35,302 bases of DNA from Chitinophaga pinensis. GTDB taxonomy: Bacteria > Bacteroidota > Bacteroidia > Chitinophagales > UBA10324. The DNA is taken from positions 1-35,302 of the forward strand of contig CAMDOA010000022.1 in assembly GCA_945903305.1 (NCBI GenBank), written 5' to 3'. This document shows positions 24,854-31,757 of the stretch, one piece after another (position 1 is the stretch's first letter; the number at the start of each line of letters is the position of its first letter). The position numbers and the translations under genes are program-made. The notes under the pieces were generated by a model. It saw only the letters and a program-made list of their open reading frames with translations, had not been told where the DNA came from and did not search any database.

Positions 24854-25597
24854 ATGAAAACAATCGGTTTGAAATTTTTATTCTTGTTAATCGCAACCAG
24901 TATACCTGAATTTCTGTTTGCTCAAAAATCATTTGTGTTAAAACCCGGATTGGACATTTCGCTCGCTGCCGTTGTCGGCGGAGCAGTGGGATTCGATAAA
25001 TTATTTTTAGAAAAAAAACACTCTGTACTCAGCGAGCAAAAATTCAATTCGCTTTCAACCGGGCAATTATTTTTTTTTGATCAGCCCAGAAAATAATTTC
25101 CATTTCCGGATAAAATCAGCGACGGACTTTTAATAGGTGCTACTGCCCCGATTATTTACTATTTGATTAGTAAGGAAGACAGAAGTAATTACGGCACTTA
25201 TATGACCATGTATTTTGAAACGATGATTTTAAATGCTGCATTAACAGATATTGTTAAAATAACAACGAAAAGAACCAGACCATTTGTTTATATATTAAAT
25301 TCTTATGATGATGTATTGCGATTAAAACATCCGGAAGATGCTTCTTTGTCGTTTTATTCAGGTCACACATCTACTGTTGCAGCAACTTCTTTTTTTATGG
25401 CACGCACAATCACGCTGAATGAAACTGATAAAACAAAAAAAACATTCATTTGGATTAGCGCAGCCACTATTCCTGCAGTATAAGGTTTTTTAAGAGTTTC
25501 GGCGGGTAAACATTTTGCGACCGATGTGATTGCTGGTTATTTAATGGGGGCATTAACCGGTTACATGATTCCGACTTTGCATATTAAGAAGAAGTAA
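24854..25597 (+). pseudogene. PAP2-family phosphatase, disrupted by two in-frame stops
   Basis: One continuous reading frame of 247 sense and nonsense codons plus a final TAA encodes a signal peptide (MKTIGLKFLFLLIATSIPEFLFA) and all three PAP2 phosphatase motifs. These are KITTKRTRP (K-x6-RP), FYSGHTS (SGH) and RVSAGKHFATD (R-x5-H-x3-D). The frame is interrupted by TAA at 25094-25096 and again at 25481-25483, with no frameshift. The second stop cuts off the third motif, which contains the catalytic histidine. Intact relatives dephosphorylate lipid phosphates such as undecaprenyl pyrophosphate or phosphatidates in the periplasm. The motifs are well preserved, so decay is recent, or one or both stops are sequencing errors. 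Confidence 0.85.
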
Positions 25598-25792: not shown

Positions 25793-27892
25793 TCAGAAAA
25801 ACTGCAACCCTGCTGTCCATCCAATCCAGCCATTAACTCCGGTGGTGCCGCCACCATGTGCGTTATACAAGTGAGATTTTACTGCGGAATTATAGGAGTC
25901 GTGAAGCACTTCCACATTAAAACATGGCCCTGCATACAAGCCAATTCCTTTTGTGATTTGCCAGCCCGGAAGAATGCGCAATTGATTCACCATGTTTATT
26001 CCGGTGCTCCAATCTTTGAAATCCTTGTAATGAACATTCCACGCGAGTGCTTCAATGTTGGTGAAGAATTTTTTGCTGATATCAATGTGTGTTCCGATTC
26101 CATAACCAAATGAATATCGGTTTCCATCTGCAGTATTTGGTGAAACACCAATTGAAAAAATATTATAAAATGCTTTCGAACCCAACCGCACACTTGCATT
26201 GATGTTGCTGAAATCAGTATTGAAAACATCCACATGAAACAATCCGTTTCTTGAAATAGAAATCAATCCGATGGGAACTCCTTTGAGTGAATCAGAAATA
26301 TTGATGAGCCCGATTTGCATTCCGGCCACTTTCACTCCCACATTTATTAATCCGATTTGGAAACCATTTAATTTATTGGCCATATTTAAAATTCCTGAAA
26401 TTTGTGAGCCATTCATTTTTCCCAATGAAAGATTGGCAATTCCTCCAATCTGTGTTCCGTTCACACTGTGCGATGTGGTAGAAACATTTGCGATGCCTCC
26501 AATCTGAGCACCGTTAATGGAATCGAGTGCATAATTCACAAGACCTCCTATTTGTGTACCATCAACCGAACCCAGTGATGTATTTACGAGTCCACCAATT
26601 TGTACACCATTCACATTGCGCGCGTGATTCACCAATCCGCCGAGTTGCAATCCATTTGCATTTCCGAAAACCACATTGGTGAGTCCGGCAATTTGTAACC
26701 CGTTCATATTTTTCCGATCGATGTTCACCAGGCCGCCGAGTTCAAAACCATTTACTCCGCCGTTGTAACCGCTGAGAATATTGAATGAAAAAACATTTGA
26801 ATACTTACCGGAAATAATTCCATTCGATCCAATCGGATACAGAAATGAAACCTGTGCTGCCCGATTCTGAATACTCACAGTGTCATGAGTTGATTGTCGT
26901 TTGTTGTGATACTTACTTGCAAAAACACCGTTGAGTTTTGCGCGCATCCATTGATAAGATGCTTTAGACTCATCAGAAATATTTTTCGAAATGTCATCCA
27001 CTTTATTTGCCATTTCAGAATTTAATAATTGCAATTTCTTTTTTGCTGAATCATCTGTTTCAGAAATAGTTTGTGAAACAGAATCAGCTGACTCAGGAAT
27101 TAAAACCGGAGTTGTTTGCGAACTCTTTTGATTGTTGTCAATTGAAATTTCATTTGGAATATTTTCTGATTGAACAGTTTTAGTTTCTTCTATCATTTTT
27201 CCAATTCCTCCAATGAGAATCTCAAAAGATTTATTTTCAAAATTATTATTTGAAGCAACTGAATTTCCTGTTTCAATTTTTACTGAATCAGAAATTATTT
27301 TTTCCATTTCGGTTTGAATAACTGAAGAGTTTGAATTCAATTCATCCTTCTTTGAATTAGATTTTGAACTGTTATTTGGAATAATTTCAGTTGAATTTTT
27401 TTTCAAATTATTGCTCGAAGCCTTTTTATTTTTTGGATCAGAAATTATTTTTTCATTGGAAATGCTGCTTATCTGTTTTGAAGAATAAATAATTTCGATA
27501 CCCGTTTTATTTACTTCAACAGAATTTATTTTTTCAGCATCAGTATTCTCTTCAACATTTTTATTTGAAGAAATTGAATTGATGTCAGAATTATTTCTAT
27601 TCTCAGATTGAACAGTGGTAATGTTTTCTATCTGACTTTTGCTCGTTTCAGCCAGTTGATTTTTAACTGAATTGTTTTGATTAAAAAATATGGTAGTAAC
27701 TATCGCTGTAATGATTATTCCGCTCATGATTCCTGTTGTGTAAATGAAGTATCGGTTATGTGTTAATCGGTATTGCAATGATGGTTTTGGAGCTGCAACA
27801 AAAGCTGTCATCAGCGAATCGAAGTTTTTGAACGAATTGATTTGCGCTTCGCTCAAAGGTTTTTGGTGAAATTTGAATTTTATCTTCGTCAT
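25793..27892 (-). CDS. Dual membrane-spanning anti-sigma factor (Dma-like) with LA_2272-type repeats
   Basis: This 699-residue protein has four parts. Residues 1-48 are a short charged helical segment in the place of an anti-sigma domain. Residues 49-70 form a single membrane helix (IYTTGIMSGIIITAIVTTIF). Residues about 71-325 are a low-complexity linker rich in Ser, Asn, Lys, Ile and Glu, able to cross the periplasm. Residues about 370-570 contain about eleven NG-Q-IGGL-N repeats (NGVQIGGLVN, NGTQIGGIAN and variants) of the LA_2272 surface-repeat type. The end (about 570-699) is strand-rich and finishes WTAGLQFF, like an outer-membrane barrel. There is no signal peptide, as expected for a cytoplasmic N-terminus. 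It starts one base after the stop of the ECF sigma gene. I infer that it holds the sigma factor inactive and senses the outer membrane. Confidence 0.75.
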   Translation of the reverse strand: MTKIKFKFHQKPLSEAQINSFKNFDSLMTAFVAAPKPSLQYRLTHNRYFIYTTGIMSGIIITAIVTTIFFNQNNSVKNQLAETSKSQIENITTVQSENRNNSDINSISSNKNVEENTDAEKINSVEVNKTGIEIIYSSKQISSISNEKIISDPKNKKASSNNLKKNSTEIIPNNSSKSNSKKDELNSNSSVIQTEMEKIISDSVKIETGNSVASNNNFENKSFEILIGGIGKMIEETKTVQSENIPNEISIDNNQKSSQTTPVLIPESADSVSQTISETDDSAKKKLQLLNSEMANKVDDISKNISDESKASYQWMRAKLNGVFASKYHNKRQSTHDTVSIQNRAAQVSFLYPIGSNGIISGKYSNVFSFNILSGYNGGVNGFELGGLVNIDRKNMNGLQIAGLTNVVFGNANGLQLGGLVNHARNVNGVQIGGLVNTSLGSVDGTQIGGLVNYALDSINGAQIGGIANVSTTSHSVNGTQIGGIANLSLGKMNGSQISGILNMANKLNGFQIGLINVGVKVAGMQIGLINISDSLKGVPIGLISISRNGLFHVDVFNTDFSNINASVRLGSKAFYNIFSIGVSPNTADGNRYSFGYGIGTHIDISKKFFTNIEALAWNVHYKDFKDWSTGINMVNQLRILPGWQITKGIGLYAGPCFNVEVLHDSYNSAVKSHLYNAHGGGTTGVNGWIGWTAGLQFF

Positions 27893-27893
27893 G

Positions 27894-28445
27894 TTACGCT
27901 GCTTTTACTTGGGTGGATAATTGCTTGCGCAGCCGTTCCAATATGCGGTGCACTTTTACTTTCGCGTTGTTCTCTGTTAGTCCTTTTATCTCTGCCACTT
28001 CAGCGAAACTTCTTTTTTCGAAATACCGCATTTCTATCAGTTCGAGTTCTTCTGCGTTTAATTTTTTAATGGCTTGCATGGCAGCTTCTCTTCTTTCCTG
28101 AATCAGGTGCGAATCATTTTCATCCAGAATATCATTAAGGTCAGTGAGTTCCATACTCACAGTGCGTTCCTTTTTCCGGTCTCTGTAATATTGATTTACT
28201 TCATTGCTGGCAATTCGAATCAGCCACGCACCAAACGGAACTCCGCGGTCTTCATAATATTTCAAATGCTGCATTGCTTTCAGAAAAACCTGCTGCGCAA
28301 AATCTGCTGCATGGTGTTCATCATCAAGTCGGCGGTAGATGAACAGATATACATCCTTAAAATATTTTTCGTAGAGCGCACGAAAGTGCTGCGGATTTTT
28401 TTTTGCCGCCTCAATTAATTCGCTCTCGTTGTTAGTTATTGCCAC
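27894..28445 (-). CDS. ECF-family RNA polymerase sigma factor
   Basis: This 183-residue protein directs RNA polymerase to a special promoter set. Region 2 spans about residues 20-92, with YEKYFKDVYLFIYRRL, AQQVFLKAMQHL and the -10-reading segment WLIRIASNEVNQYYRDRKK. Region 4 spans about 122-176, with the helix-turn-helix EMRYFEKRSFAEVAEIKGLT and NNAKVKVHRILERLRK. There is no region 1.1 or 3 and no C-terminal extension. It lies between a DUF2807 lipoprotein gene (39-base gap) and the anti-sigma-like gene (1-base gap), an arrangement that usually means co-transcription and autoregulation. Group assignment (ECF21-like) is an inference from the partner gene. Confidence 0.92.
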   Translation of the reverse strand: MAITNNESELIEAAKKNPQHFRALYEKYFKDVYLFIYRRLDDEHHAADFAQQVFLKAMQHLKYYEDRGVPFGAWLIRIASNEVNQYYRDRKKERTVSMELTDLNDILDENDSHLIQERREAAMQAIKKLNAEELELIEMRYFEKRSFAEVAEIKGLTENNAKVKVHRILERLRKQLSTQVKAA

Positions 28446-28484
28446 AGATTCTTAGATTCTTTGCTATCGTAAATTTATCAATCA

Positions 28485-29267
28485 CTAGTTTACATGAATC
28501 AGATTTCCACTTCCATTCATTTGCGAGTTGATGGTTGGGTTTCCTTTGTAATACAAATCACCGCTTCCACTGACTGTTATATCTAAATTATCGGCAACAT
28601 TTATTTCAGTTGCTCCGCTTCCGCTTACAGTAATTTCAGCTGTGAGCGAAGACAAATCAAACGAATGAATATCGCCTGAGCCATTGATTGTAAATTTTTC
28701 TGATGAAGTTTTACCTTTAACAGTAATATTTCCGGAGCCGCTTATTTTCCCGGTGAGCGAATTACAAACCGCAATCATTTTCATGCTGCCCGAACCGCTG
28801 ATATTTGATGTAACAGAATTGGCGATTAAACTATCCTGCAATTCAATATCACCTGAGCCACTCACATTTAAATCAAAATCCGTTGCTTCAATTTTTGACG
28901 ACACAATTAAATTTCCGGAGCCGCTCAAATCAATTCCATTCAATGATGGAGTGGTGATATAAATTTTTATTGGCTCATGATTTTTCAGGCAATGCTTATT
29001 ATAAATTTTCAAAGAGTTACCATTCAATTCGGTTTGCATGTCATCAATAATATTTTGTTGCGCTTCAATTTTCATTGAGTAGAAAGTATCCACCGTAATG
29101 TAAACTGTTCCTTCAGTTTGAAATTCAATTCGCGAATAGCTGCTCACATCGCGGGTTTGTGTTTGCACACTGCCTTTTCCCTTGATGCATGGAAAATTTT
29201 CGCGGCGACAGGAAGTGGTTACAATGACTAAAATCAGGAGAGAGTAAATAGAAATTATCCGTTTCAT
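28485..29267 (-). CDS. DUF2807 (head-GIN domain) lipoprotein
   Basis: This 260-residue protein has a lipoprotein signal with the lipidated cysteine at position 20 (ILVIVTTSC). The body is a DUF2807 beta-helix, annotated as the putative auto-transporter adhesin head-GIN domain. It carries eight or so regularly spaced SGSG or NGSG turns (DLSGSGNLIV, NVSGSGDIEL, NISGSGSMKM, KISGSGNITV, TVSGSGATEI, TVSGSGDLYY). The domain is found in envelope proteins across Bacteroidota and its ligand is unknown. It is the first gene of a likely operon with the sigma and anti-sigma genes, and is preceded by the TGTAAC-N13-TGCATT element. It may therefore be an output or a sensor part of that envelope response. 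Confidence 0.87.
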   Translation of the reverse strand: MKRIISIYSLLILVIVTTSCRRENFPCIKGKGSVQTQTRDVSSYSRIEFQTEGTVYITVDTFYSMKIEAQQNIIDDMQTELNGNSLKIYNKHCLKNHEPIKIYITTPSLNGIDLSGSGNLIVSSKIEATDFDLNVSGSGDIELQDSLIANSVTSNISGSGSMKMIAVCNSLTGKISGSGNITVKGKTSSEKFTINGSGDIHSFDLSSLTAEITVSGSGATEINVADNLDITVSGSGDLYYKGNPTINSQMNGSGNLIHVN

Positions 29268-29289: not shown

Positions 29290-29314
29290 AATGCAAAAGG
29301 ACGAAAAAGTTACA
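29290..29314 (-). promoter_or_regulatory. Candidate ECF promoter before the DUF2807-sigma-antisigma operon
   Basis: On the minus strand TGTAAC (29314-29309) is followed after 13 bases by TGCATT (29295-29290), 41 bases ahead of the DUF2807 start. The same element with the same spacing precedes the TonB receptor gene. TGTAAC fits the -35 style of many ECF promoters. Confidence 0.5.
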
Positions 29315-29356: not shown

Positions 29357-31714
29357 TTAAAATTCCACTTTATAACTCAGAACAGGAATGATTGTCATTT
29401 GGTAGTTTGTAACAAGTTTCTGCTTTCTTGGATCAAAAGACTGTCCGAAAACATTTTTACGATTTGTTGCATTTTGAATGTCTAACGAATAAATACTTGT
29501 ATGCTTTGGTTTGTTTCGTTTTATACAAATTGAACCGTCAATGCGAAAATAAGCAGGGTTTTGTTTACTAAAAGCATTATTGCTTATTTCTACAGTTTGG
29601 TTAGATGCAATGGAAGCAGATAAATCAATTGGAGTGTAACGATATCCTCCTGAATAAAGAACTTTGGTGTTCAAACCAAGAATAGTTGCTTCTGAATTTT
29701 TTGACACCACAAATTCTTTACCTGCAGTAAAACTTCCTGCAATGTTTCCGTTGTACCGAGTATTGCGCTCCACTCCATCCGAACCTATGTATTTCGATTC
29801 ATACAATGACAATGAAAGAAGGTAGTAAAATCGATTCGATAAAAATTTTTCCAGAGTGAGTTCAACACCTCTATTGGTACCAGTTCCTTTACTAATGAGT
29901 TTATCAGCAATAAATCCTTCCGACTGATTTAGCATGGAGAACGAAGTTGCTGAATCTTGGCTGACCGGAACATCAAATAACCACTGATAATAAAATTCAG
30001 TTTTGATTCTGAGGTTTTTACTAAGCAGATAATTATATGATAAAACCAGGTGATGCGCCTTTGTAAATTTTATATCACGGTTCGGATAAAATTTCATACC
30101 CATAGGATCAATAGCCTGAGCAAAATATAAACCGATTGGTTGCTGCTGACTATGTAAACCATATCCGATACTGATGCTTTGCTTTTCACCGATATCATAA
30201 TTCATCGAGGCGCGTGGTTCAAGTGAATATGTATTGTTCAGCCAAAAATACATTGCATGCAACCCGGCATTCGCTGAAAATTTATTGCTGAAATGATACT
30301 TTACCTGAGCAAAAATCTGTGAATCATAAGACTCACCGCTCCCGTCAACCTCCGTAATTAATTCTTCACCGGGAACGGGACTGCGCTCACTTTTCAATTT
30401 AAAACTGCTTCGTGTTTGCGAGACTCCTGTTCGTAACAAAAATTTTGAATTGAATTTATAATTGAGAACCGATGACACTGATTGCTTAATGAGTTGAAAT
30501 GATTCAACATCTGTTTTAACGAGGTTTAACTCATCATCAGTGTAATTTTCGTTATACCCTTTACCTTCTCCTGATATTGAAATTGAGGTGCGCAAGTATG
30601 CTTTTGAATTGAAAATATAGGAATGAGTAAAACCTGAAACACCTGTGTTAGAAAAAAATGTGCTGCCGAGACGATCATAAAAATGCGCCCATTCTGTCGT
30701 GTCTTTGATTGCTTTGAAATCTTGCGCACTCAATCCTCCAATACCGAATAAACTGAAGTATCCAGATTTTTTTGTAGGAAGAAAAACATTGAATGATAAG
30801 TCCTGATATGTTGTAATCCCGCCAAGATTGATAAGTCCGGTTCCATTTAAAATACCAAGAGTAGAGTATCGATAATTAACTAGATATGATCCTTTATAGT
30901 TTTTTTTGAAGGGACCTTCAGCAGCAAAACTTAAACCCAGCACACTTGCCTGAGCCGTGAATTCCATTTTTTCATTGTTTCCTTTTCTCAGTTTTAAATC
31001 AAAAACACCGGAGAGTGCATTTCCATATTCAGCAGCAAATGCGCCGCTGATAAAATCAGAATTGGAAAGTAACTGCGCGTTCAGAATTGAAACACCTCCA
31101 CCAGATGTTCCAACACTCGAAAAGTGATTTAGATTTGGAATATCAATTCCTTCCATGCGCCACAATAAGCCGTTTGGCGAATTGCCCCGAATAGAAATTT
31201 TATTATTTCCATCATCAGTTGAAACTACGCCTGCAAATGAGGTGACCATTCTACCAGGATCATTTACTGCTGCAGCATATCGTTGTGTTTCTTCCACCGA
31301 AAAAGTGCGTGCACTCACATTCGAAAGTTCATTGAGTGGTTGGTCTTTTCGTTTATCGGCTGTTACAATAATTTCCTTTCCTTCAATAAAATTTTCTTCC
31401 AACTCAATGGTCAGCACGGTTTCTTTTCCCGAGTTGATTTGCACATTTGGAATATCCAGCGGCTTGTATCCAATATAAGAGACTCGAACAGTGTAAGTTC
31501 CAACAAGCACATTATCAATTCTGAAATTTCCATTTACATCAGTCACAGTTCCCATCATGGGTGAAGTGGATGGCAGTGTGACAGTTGCGCCAATCAATTC
31601 ATTCTTAACATTCTTGTCAATTACAGCCCCTCTAATAACCTGTGAAAGGTTTTGGGCCTGTGCAATAAGTGTTATTTGTAAAATAATTAATATCAGAAAC
31701 AATCTCTTTTTCAT
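29357..31714 (-). CDS. TonB-dependent receptor with carboxypeptidase-regulatory-like domain
   Basis: This 785-residue outer-membrane protein starts with a signal peptide (MKKRLFLILIILQITLIAQA). It has a carboxypeptidase-regulatory-like domain (about 22-110, with VIRGAVIDKNVKNELIGATV and DVNGNFRIDNVLVGTYTVRV), then a plug domain with ISIRGNSPNGLLWRMEGIDI and a long barrel ending VLSYKVEF. The plug lacks the GYGS-style strings of siderophore receptors, and there is no SusD neighbour. Receptors of this build are numerous in Bacteroidota and are often controlled by ECF sigma factors. It lies 89 bases upstream of the DUF2807-sigma-antisigma operon in the same direction and has the same promoter-like element, so it is probably part of that regulon. 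Its substrate is unknown. Confidence 0.9.
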   Translation of the reverse strand: MKKRLFLILIILQITLIAQAQNLSQVIRGAVIDKNVKNELIGATVTLPSTSPMMGTVTDVNGNFRIDNVLVGTYTVRVSYIGYKPLDIPNVQINSGKETVLTIELEENFIEGKEIIVTADKRKDQPLNELSNVSARTFSVEETQRYAAAVNDPGRMVTSFAGVVSTDDGNNKISIRGNSPNGLLWRMEGIDIPNLNHFSSVGTSGGGVSILNAQLLSNSDFISGAFAAEYGNALSGVFDLKLRKGNNEKMEFTAQASVLGLSFAAEGPFKKNYKGSYLVNYRYSTLGILNGTGLINLGGITTYQDLSFNVFLPTKKSGYFSLFGIGGLSAQDFKAIKDTTEWAHFYDRLGSTFFSNTGVSGFTHSYIFNSKAYLRTSISISGEGKGYNENYTDDELNLVKTDVESFQLIKQSVSSVLNYKFNSKFLLRTGVSQTRSSFKLKSERSPVPGEELITEVDGSGESYDSQIFAQVKYHFSNKFSANAGLHAMYFWLNNTYSLEPRASMNYDIGEKQSISIGYGLHSQQQPIGLYFAQAIDPMGMKFYPNRDIKFTKAHHLVLSYNYLLSKNLRIKTEFYYQWLFDVPVSQDSATSFSMLNQSEGFIADKLISKGTGTNRGVELTLEKFLSNRFYYLLSLSLYESKYIGSDGVERNTRYNGNIAGSFTAGKEFVVSKNSEATILGLNTKVLYSGGYRYTPIDLSASIASNQTVEISNNAFSKQNPAYFRIDGSICIKRNKPKHTSIYSLDIQNATNRKNVFGQSFDPRKQKLVTNYQMTIIPVLSYKVEF

Positions 31715-31732: not shown

Positions 31733-31757
31733 AATGCAGAAACGGAAAAAGGTTACA
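31733..31757 (-). promoter_or_regulatory. Candidate ECF promoter before the TonB receptor
   Basis: On the minus strand TGTAAC (31757-31752) is followed after 13 bases by TGCATT (31738-31733), 37 bases between TGTAAC and the receptor ATG. Both halves and the spacing equal the element at 29290-29314, and the spacers share a T-rich run followed by C and G. Confidence 0.5.

Follow-up and report, generated by a model that had tools for sequence, protein, structure and literature searches.

The contig CAMDOA010000022.1 of Chitinophaga pinensis (assembly GCA_945903305.1), a stretch of 35,302 nucleotides that we refer to as the window, carries on its minus strand four consecutive genes for a TonB-dependent receptor (TBDR), a DUF2807 protein, an extracytoplasmic function (ECF) sigma factor and a protein of 699 codons. 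Read 5' to 3' on that strand the genes follow each other in this order, with intergenic gaps of 89, 39 and 1 bp. An operon of the last three had been proposed in a preliminary description of the window, and the open reading frames (ORFs) were found where it had placed them, all on the minus strand. The TBDR gene, which lies 89 bp upstream of the DUF2807 gene and has a promoter motif in common with it, was absent from that description. The cluster consists of the following features, from 5' to 3'.

31733..31757, minus strand: predicted ECF promoter TGTAACCTTTTTCCGTTTCTGCATT ahead of the TBDR gene, called from a motif 43 bp upstream
29357..31714, minus strand: TonB-dependent receptor P0004, 785 aa, with CarboxypepD_reg-like, plug and barrel domains in Pfam; predicted target of the sigma factor
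29290..29314, minus strand: predicted autoregulatory ECF promoter TGTAACTTTTTCGTCCTTTTGCATT ahead of the DUF2807-sigma-anti-sigma operon, called from the shared motif
28485..29267, minus strand: DUF2807 (head GIN) putative lipoprotein P0003, 260 aa, gene 1 of the operon (PF10988, E 1.1e-43)
27894..28445, minus strand: ECF sigma factor P0002, 183 aa, GTG start (Sigma70_r2, 2e-15; Sigma70_r4_2, 1.1e-9)
25793..27892, minus strand: 699-aa protein P0001, beginning one base past the sigma stop
27752..27892, minus strand: residues 1-47 of P0001, a conserved cytoplasmic segment and the proposed sigma-binding part (N-terminal alignment, net charge +6)
27683..27751, minus strand: residues 48-70 of P0001, a single transmembrane helix (hydropathy)
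26864..27682, minus strand: residues 71-343 of P0001, a low-complexity periplasmic linker (composition, poor conservation)
25796..26863, minus strand: residues 344-699 of P0001, LA_2272 repeats and C-terminal part with a final F, the proposed outer-membrane barrel (NF047436; homology to STN-type barrel proteins)

P0003 was the only DUF2807 gene detected in the draft genome of the window, and its relatives with solved structures include 3jx8 and 3lyc. No signal peptide was seen on P0001 by eye, in agreement with the preliminary description, and the chain starts with 47 residues of net charge +6. These are followed by a transmembrane window at about residues 48-70 (best 19-residue hydropathy window at 52, mean 1.86), which corresponds to the one membrane helix after 48 residues noted earlier, and by a linker of 272 residues, 71% of them S, N, K, E, T, D, Q, P or G, where a disordered-looking stretch of roughly 250 residues had been described. 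The repeat domain begins at about residue 344 and the protein terminates in FF. When compared with the two models of LA_2272/VC2662 repeat proteins, P0001 scored above the cut-off of NF047436 (42.3 bits, cut-off 25), a surface-repeat annotation that upholds the earlier assignment of LA_2272-type repeats to the outer part, and fell far short of NF047437 (21 bits, cut-off 140). The strict repeat pattern is present in eight copies spaced by 15-18 residues (at most 1 in 2000 shuffles), and three weaker copies follow (GFQIGLINV, GMQIGLINI and GVPIGLISI), together giving the eleven or so repeats counted before. No solved structure matched P0001 at E 1, and a scan of viral contigs for more of its relatives gave none.

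A search of 298 genomes of the same order with P0001 gave matches in 68, its own genome counted. Regions of about 15 kb (less at contig ends) were fetched around 60 of the 67 other matches and make up, with the window, the 61 loci compared here; the matching genomes left out were G167, G222, G252, G253, G261, G285 and G297 (G, L and f numbers are our handles for genomes, loci and families). The loci encode 72 barrel-domain proteins. Eleven of these, from families f1 and f13, are of the window type, and 49, from families f10, f11, f17 and f20, carry an STN-type N-terminal domain after a signal-peptide-like start and are referred to as the STN type. The other 12 have a signal-peptide-like start without STN. 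Such starts were judged by eye, and all contain a hydrophobic stretch within the first ~80 residues. Several of the locus counts given below rest on profiles built here, and the genomes are drafts. The 12 stand-alone LA_2272 barrel proteins are 337-419 aa long and mostly adjoin an STN-type gene; 11 share their locus with an STN-type protein (L051, L054, L063, L065, L070, L073, L074, L075, L076, L086 and L089) and one is alone (L072). Possibly, they are co-receptors or decoys.

Nine of the window-type proteins are full length (L043 and L045 are cut off), and all nine have an N-terminus of 47-54 residues with a charge of +5 to +8 and a linker of 242-336 residues, while the mean hydropathy of the transmembrane window was at least 1.59 in eight of them and 1.13 in L048. 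Alignment of nine window-type N-termini gave 15 invariant columns across residues 1-62. A profile of this segment run over 395 genomes of the phylum found a strong match only in the window's own genome; eight other partial matches (E 4e-4 to 9e-3) were taken as chance. The sigma gene is paired with the large gene in 9 of the 11 loci, and the other two start at a contig end. Eight of these pairings were called by script and the ninth, in L039, consists of the 70 C-terminal residues of the sigma factor next to a stretch masked by N. In each of the eight loci with a called sigma the two genes overlap or lie at most 9 bp apart. It had been pointed out beforehand that homologues occurring mostly without a sigma gene would speak against the proposed system, and for the window type this is not what was found.

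Among the STN-type loci the same barrel domain stands in different company. A FecR gene lies directly upstream of the barrel gene in 47 of the 49 (profile built here), a sigma gene lies within 4 kb in 37 of the 49, with FecR between the sigma and the barrel gene, and at L049 and L064, the two loci that were checked completely, both FecR and STN were confirmed by Pfam. At E 0.01, 34 of the 49 proteins had an STN domain in Pfam (PF07660); our own STN profile matched 134 ORFs, more than there are barrel proteins, and the Pfam count is the safer figure. None of ten window-type proteins matched PF07660 (L045, broken near a contig end, was left out), and no FecR gene was found near any of the 11 window-type barrels. 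Neither was FecR (PF04773) found in any of the 17 genomes tested from families f1 and f13, all 11 holders of the window type included, while the same search detected it in 4 of 4 STN-type holders. The barrels of the two types are homologous, with an identity of up to 42% over the whole domain (G119), and those of the window type form one clade (11 rows, support 100/98). As a separate observation, 18 of the 49 STN-type loci also encode a small outer-membrane protein of ~200 aa no more than 3 kb from the barrel gene (own profile), examples being L064:8158-8733 (OMP_b-brl, 5.3e-6) and L056:7691-8290.

In known systems the STN-type domain is part of outer-membrane proteins, and this bears on where the repeat domain of P0001 would reside. 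The preliminary description had given the protein a barrel-like end with a terminal FF and had let one chain reach from the cytoplasm to the outer membrane. The FF is present, and both a cytoplasmic start and an outer-membrane-type domain are supported, but the AlphaFold2 models were of too low a confidence to show a barrel, and its presence is unproven. Alternatively, the LA_2272 region could be a beta-solenoid or a periplasmic sensor, in which case the chain would not cross the outer membrane. Its short repeats of 15-16 residues, rich in G, Q and N, fit a solenoid too, and the low confidence of both models leaves room for it. Against this, F is the last residue in every one of the 11 window-type proteins and in 36 of the 49 STN-type proteins, as fits the C-terminal rule of outer-membrane proteins (among the 12 stand-alone proteins it is so in only 4), and the homologues start with signal-peptide-like segments (by eye) and carry the STN-type domain. 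We regard a solenoid or periplasmic sensor as unlikely, if still a serious contender.

The two types also have neighbours in common. Nine of the 11 window-type loci have the DUF2807 gene ahead of the sigma gene, and the two exceptions start at a contig end; this bears out its description as a part of the operon. Of the 49 STN-type loci, 34 have a DUF2807 gene on the strand of the barrel gene and no more than 6 kb away, as compared to 0.43 expected from the DUF2807 copy number per genome (3.6 matches on average). With the same limits of distance and strand, a TBDR gene neighbours the barrel gene in 19 of the 49; for the window type three such neighbours were counted, a fourth called by the script (L046) being excluded (3.5 kb away, branch 4.2, no orthologue). 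In a TBDR tree made with a quick method, the window receptor groups with 11 of 21 STN-locus receptors in a set of 14 rows that includes two of its own kind (SH-like approximate likelihood ratio test, SH-aLRT, 99), and the eight own-genome paralogues tested fall outside this group. The receptor is 46-58% identical to five receptors of family f20 (partial sequences) and 40-41% identical to its nearest own-genome paralogues (full length). The local TBDR profile also caught STN-type barrel proteins via a shared regulatory domain; ten of these entered the tree, where they formed a separate clade and were not counted as TBDRs, and five TBDR-profile rows under 600 residues were omitted.

The sigma factors, on the other hand, differ between the types. 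Window-type sigmas form their own clade (8 rows, support 100/100), the 37 FecI-type sigmas of STN loci a separate one (100/99), and five sigmas paired with proteins resembling the dual membrane-spanning anti-sigma factors (Dma) another, without the window sigmas (100/100). The window sigma is outside both the FecI-type and the Dma-partnered clade. This tree was made without six long-branch rows, one of them labelled FecI-type (the second sigma in L063, apart from the other 37). In approximately unbiased (AU) tests neither a joint clade of window and Dma-partnered sigmas (p 0.515) nor one of window and FecI-type sigmas (p 0.412) was rejected. P0002 scored 65.9 bits with the FecI-type model TIGR02985, under its cut-off of 126.4, as compared to 181.1 bits for the sigma of the STN-type locus L049.

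Our results place the window cluster beside FecI/FecR/FecA signalling without making it a member. It resembles that signalling in having, by predicted role, an anti-sigma factor, an outer-membrane transducer and one sigma factor that governs a TBDR gene. In contrast to FecI/FecR, barrel and anti-sigma segment form one chain in the window type. Neither FecR nor STN was detected there, and for that reason a reading of the window type as a 'FecI system' was rejected. The STN-type loci differ in turn from the classic FecA type, as STN is borne by the LA_2272 barrel protein and not by the TBDR. The barrel, DUF2807 and TBDR are common to both types whereas sigma clade, FecR and STN differ, and therefore we read the two as alternative wirings of one module. 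Its inner half would consist of FecI-type sigma, FecR and STN in one wiring and, in the other, of a different sigma plus an anti-sigma segment that is fused to the barrel chain. The STN type is likely the ancestral one and the swap to the fused type the later event, because the former is found in four families and the latter in two, and FecR was not found in the latter. Among the titles listed for DUF2807 with anti-sigma factors, for LA_2272 and for ECF21 with anti-sigma factors, none describes this combination.

A motif upstream of both the DUF2807 operon and the TBDR gene, TGTAAC-N15-C[A/G]TT, links the two to the sigma factor. In its strict form, TGTAACNTTTN11CRTT, it occurs nine times in 139 kb of window-type loci, each time before a DUF2807 or TBDR gene, and not once in 702 kb of the other loci. 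The distance to the start codon is 43-50 bp in eight of the nine; in L040 the called DUF2807 start lies upstream of a better one. All nine readable window-type loci have the motif before the DUF2807 gene (exact in six, one mismatch in L039 and L044, a spacing of 16 in L047), and the same motif at the same position was found in four further TBDR orthologues, one with one mismatch. It is present even where the TBDR orthologue is located elsewhere in the genome, at -41 and exact in G083 (62% identity) and at -42 with one mismatch in G002 (53% identity). For 31 other TBDR rows (at most 47% identity) the best match has two mismatches (L189, at -70) and the positions are scattered; these are the rows whose start could be placed (two of them represent a single gene and one starts at a contig end), five more loci being without a start. 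The window's own 3.1 Mb genome contains three strict matches, two of which are the two promoters listed above. As the motif is shared by the DUF2807 operon, the TBDR gene and the relocated TBDR orthologues, the most likely role of the sigma factor is to transcribe its own operon and the TBDR gene, in the manner of cell-surface signalling, and a small autoregulated regulon of these two units is predicted. A strict motif at G096:C68:3758-3782 (L199) is followed after 83 bp by an ORF of 480 aa whose start resembles that of a c-type cytochrome (by eye); the ORF is possibly a further sigma target in G096, or the match is chance.

The motif also bears on the possibility that the 699-aa protein serves merely as an envelope tether or adhesin, with the sigma factor controlled otherwise and the pairing a matter of operon convenience. 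The N-terminus is without a match to any Pfam anti-sigma family, and that it binds the sigma factor is what we infer from its setting. Such a reading would have to accommodate the overlap or close spacing of the two genes in all eight loci with a called sigma, the strong conservation of the basic N-terminus, the occurrence of the same barrel domain as part of a FecI/FecR system in the relatives, and the common promoter motif. We find it highly unlikely.

According to the available text of PMC13088901, PMC13114119 and PMC9308784, Dma1 and Dma2 (with Das1 and Das2 in Bacteroides thetaiotaomicron) and Reo (of EcfO-Reo in B. fragilis and Phocaeicola vulgatus) are anti-sigma factors that span from the cytoplasm to the outer membrane, with the sigma gene adjacent, an ECF21 sigma in the case of Dma; dma2 sits in a three-gene operon (PMC13088901). 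P0001 has the same layout, with a cytoplasmic N-terminus, one transmembrane helix, a long disordered tether, a proposed C-terminal outer-membrane domain and an adjacent ECF sigma gene. Our comparison set consisted of five proteins chosen by architecture and not of the named Dma sequences, and their sigmas are called ECF21 by inference from the partner architecture and not by an ECF21 reference model. Two of the pairs are in one other genome (L143 and L153) and three, again with a sigma and a protein of transmembrane helix, linker and C-terminal domain, are in the window's own genome (L172:3004-4765, L176:1082-2963 and L178:2556-4726). The Dma-type loci were drawn from 27 sigma-region-4 matches of genome G523; NF058625 as a route to them was dropped, as it led to short anti-sigma factors and the PorP/SprF type instead.

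Could the window cluster then be an ordinary member of the Dma/EcfO-Reo group, an ECF21 sigma with a Dma whose barrel has diverged? The order of parts and the adjacent sigma gene are as in the available account of Dma (PMC13088901), the AU test leaves a joint sigma clade unrejected, and the N-terminal profiles of the two kinds gave a weak match in hhalign (probability 11.9%, E 0.0025, 22 columns). However, the five Dma-partnered sigmas form a clade that excludes the window sigma, and the AU test equally leaves the union with FecI-type sigmas unrejected. The barrel of P0001 is related to the STN-type LA_2272 proteins, whereas Pfam finds OMP_b-brl in the Dma-type proteins of L143, L153 and L172 (no Pfam match in L176 and L178) and not in P0001. 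BLASTP of P0001 against two Dma-type proteins gave nothing significant (best E 0.76), and the barrel profile scored 5.8-6.7 bits against these two in a search of four sequences. A W that is invariant in the five Dma-type N-termini is missing from residues 1-47 of P0001, the three Dma-layout pairs exist separately in the same genome, and the window cluster differs further in having a DUF2807 gene and a TBDR as predicted co-regulated genes. We consider membership of this kind distinctly unlikely. Of the Dma identity proposed earlier, the layout and the sigma pairing hold, and membership does not follow from sigma clade, barrel family or the weak N-terminal match; the plain reading as a Dma was set aside. 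The layout is shared but sigma clade and recognised barrel family are not, and the N-termini match at best weakly; therefore the system is filed here as one that probably works like a Dma, with membership in the Dma family not established.

A third layout was seen in four f86 genomes, where another ECF sigma gene is followed by a gene for a protein with a short N-terminal part and a transmembrane helix at 76-79. These sigma partners are at L165:4165-5832, L166:7216-8928, L167:4020-5690 and L168:2371-4050, and a PorP/SprF domain, known from type IX secretion, is complete in L165 and L166, the two scanned at full length (E 5e-30 and 3e-20). In L165-L167 a further gene of 317-327 aa follows, which is PorP-like by eye.

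Taken together, we consider it quite probable that the whole cluster is a self-regulating trans-envelope signalling unit, of which the FecI/FecR relay is the other wiring. At rest, residues 1-47 of P0001 would retain the sigma factor at the inner membrane, where the single helix anchors the chain; the linker of ~270 residues would span the periplasm and place the LA_2272-repeat domain in the outer membrane. The trigger there may be a ligand, a failure to assemble the barrel, or some alteration of the DUF2807 lipoprotein or of the TBDR. It would alter or expose the tether and lead to cleavage or release of the inner-membrane part. The freed sigma could then transcribe its own operon (DUF2807 lipoprotein, sigma and anti-sigma) and the TBDR gene from the TGTAAC-N15-C[A/G]TT promoters. 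The DUF2807 lipoprotein and the TBDR may feed into the signal or answer it, and the TBDR as a target suggests that nutrient or envelope state is what is sensed. In the STN-type relatives, the N-terminal STN-type domain of the barrel protein would instead contact a separate FecR; in the lineage of the window, a different sigma and a covalently joined anti-sigma segment would have replaced FecI-type sigma, FecR and STN. According to the available text of PMC11637429 on the Fox system (Pseudomonas aeruginosa), the signalling domain of the transducer binds and protects the anti-sigma factor FoxR non-covalently without signal, and so holds it instead of triggering it. If holding by the transducer is of this type, the covalent tether would amount to a permanently held state, which could be released only if the linker is cut or the barrel is lost from the outer membrane.

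Several results weigh against this reading. The N-terminal segment of P0001 matches no Pfam family. Both AlphaFold2 models were of low confidence: the mean predicted local distance difference test score (pLDDT) was 32.7 when full-length P0001 was modelled without an alignment, and 41.4 when residues 340-699 were modelled from an alignment of four close sequences. Completeness is only 72-89% for several of the genomes in which no FecR was found. In five genomes of the genus the strict motif has 14 matches as compared to 9 for a reversed control pattern; 8 of the 14 belong to DUF2807 or TBDR genes, and only these stand out. In the TBDR tree, 10 of the 21 STN-locus receptors are outside the window's set and two own paralogues are nearer than most. 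None of the genomes G096, G108, G072, G066, G120 and G114 yielded a TBDR more than 50% identical over its length; G114 has a 63%-identity TBDR fragment of 50 residues. Finally, the backbone of the barrel tree is weak, and because of this the direction of the swap is unproven.

Apart from the cluster, two ORFs at 24854-25550 on the plus strand of the window, with further reading in other frames, resemble one fragmented phosphatase, which we take to be of the PAP2 kind from its motifs.

By what route events at the outer membrane act on a cytoplasmic sigma factor is still debated. It appears that one Bacteroidota lineage fused an outer-membrane sensor to the inhibitor of the sigma factor, while other families use two separate proteins. 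A homologous sensor that occurs both in an STN/FecR two-protein relay and as a covalent tether is a natural experiment on signalling across two membranes; if holding is the decisive step, the tether would be its permanently held form, and the small predicted regulon offers a ready reporter. Our results also suggest that the Dma layout can arise more than once, and if the third layout is real, tethered anti-sigma factors would draw on at least three families of outer-membrane domains.

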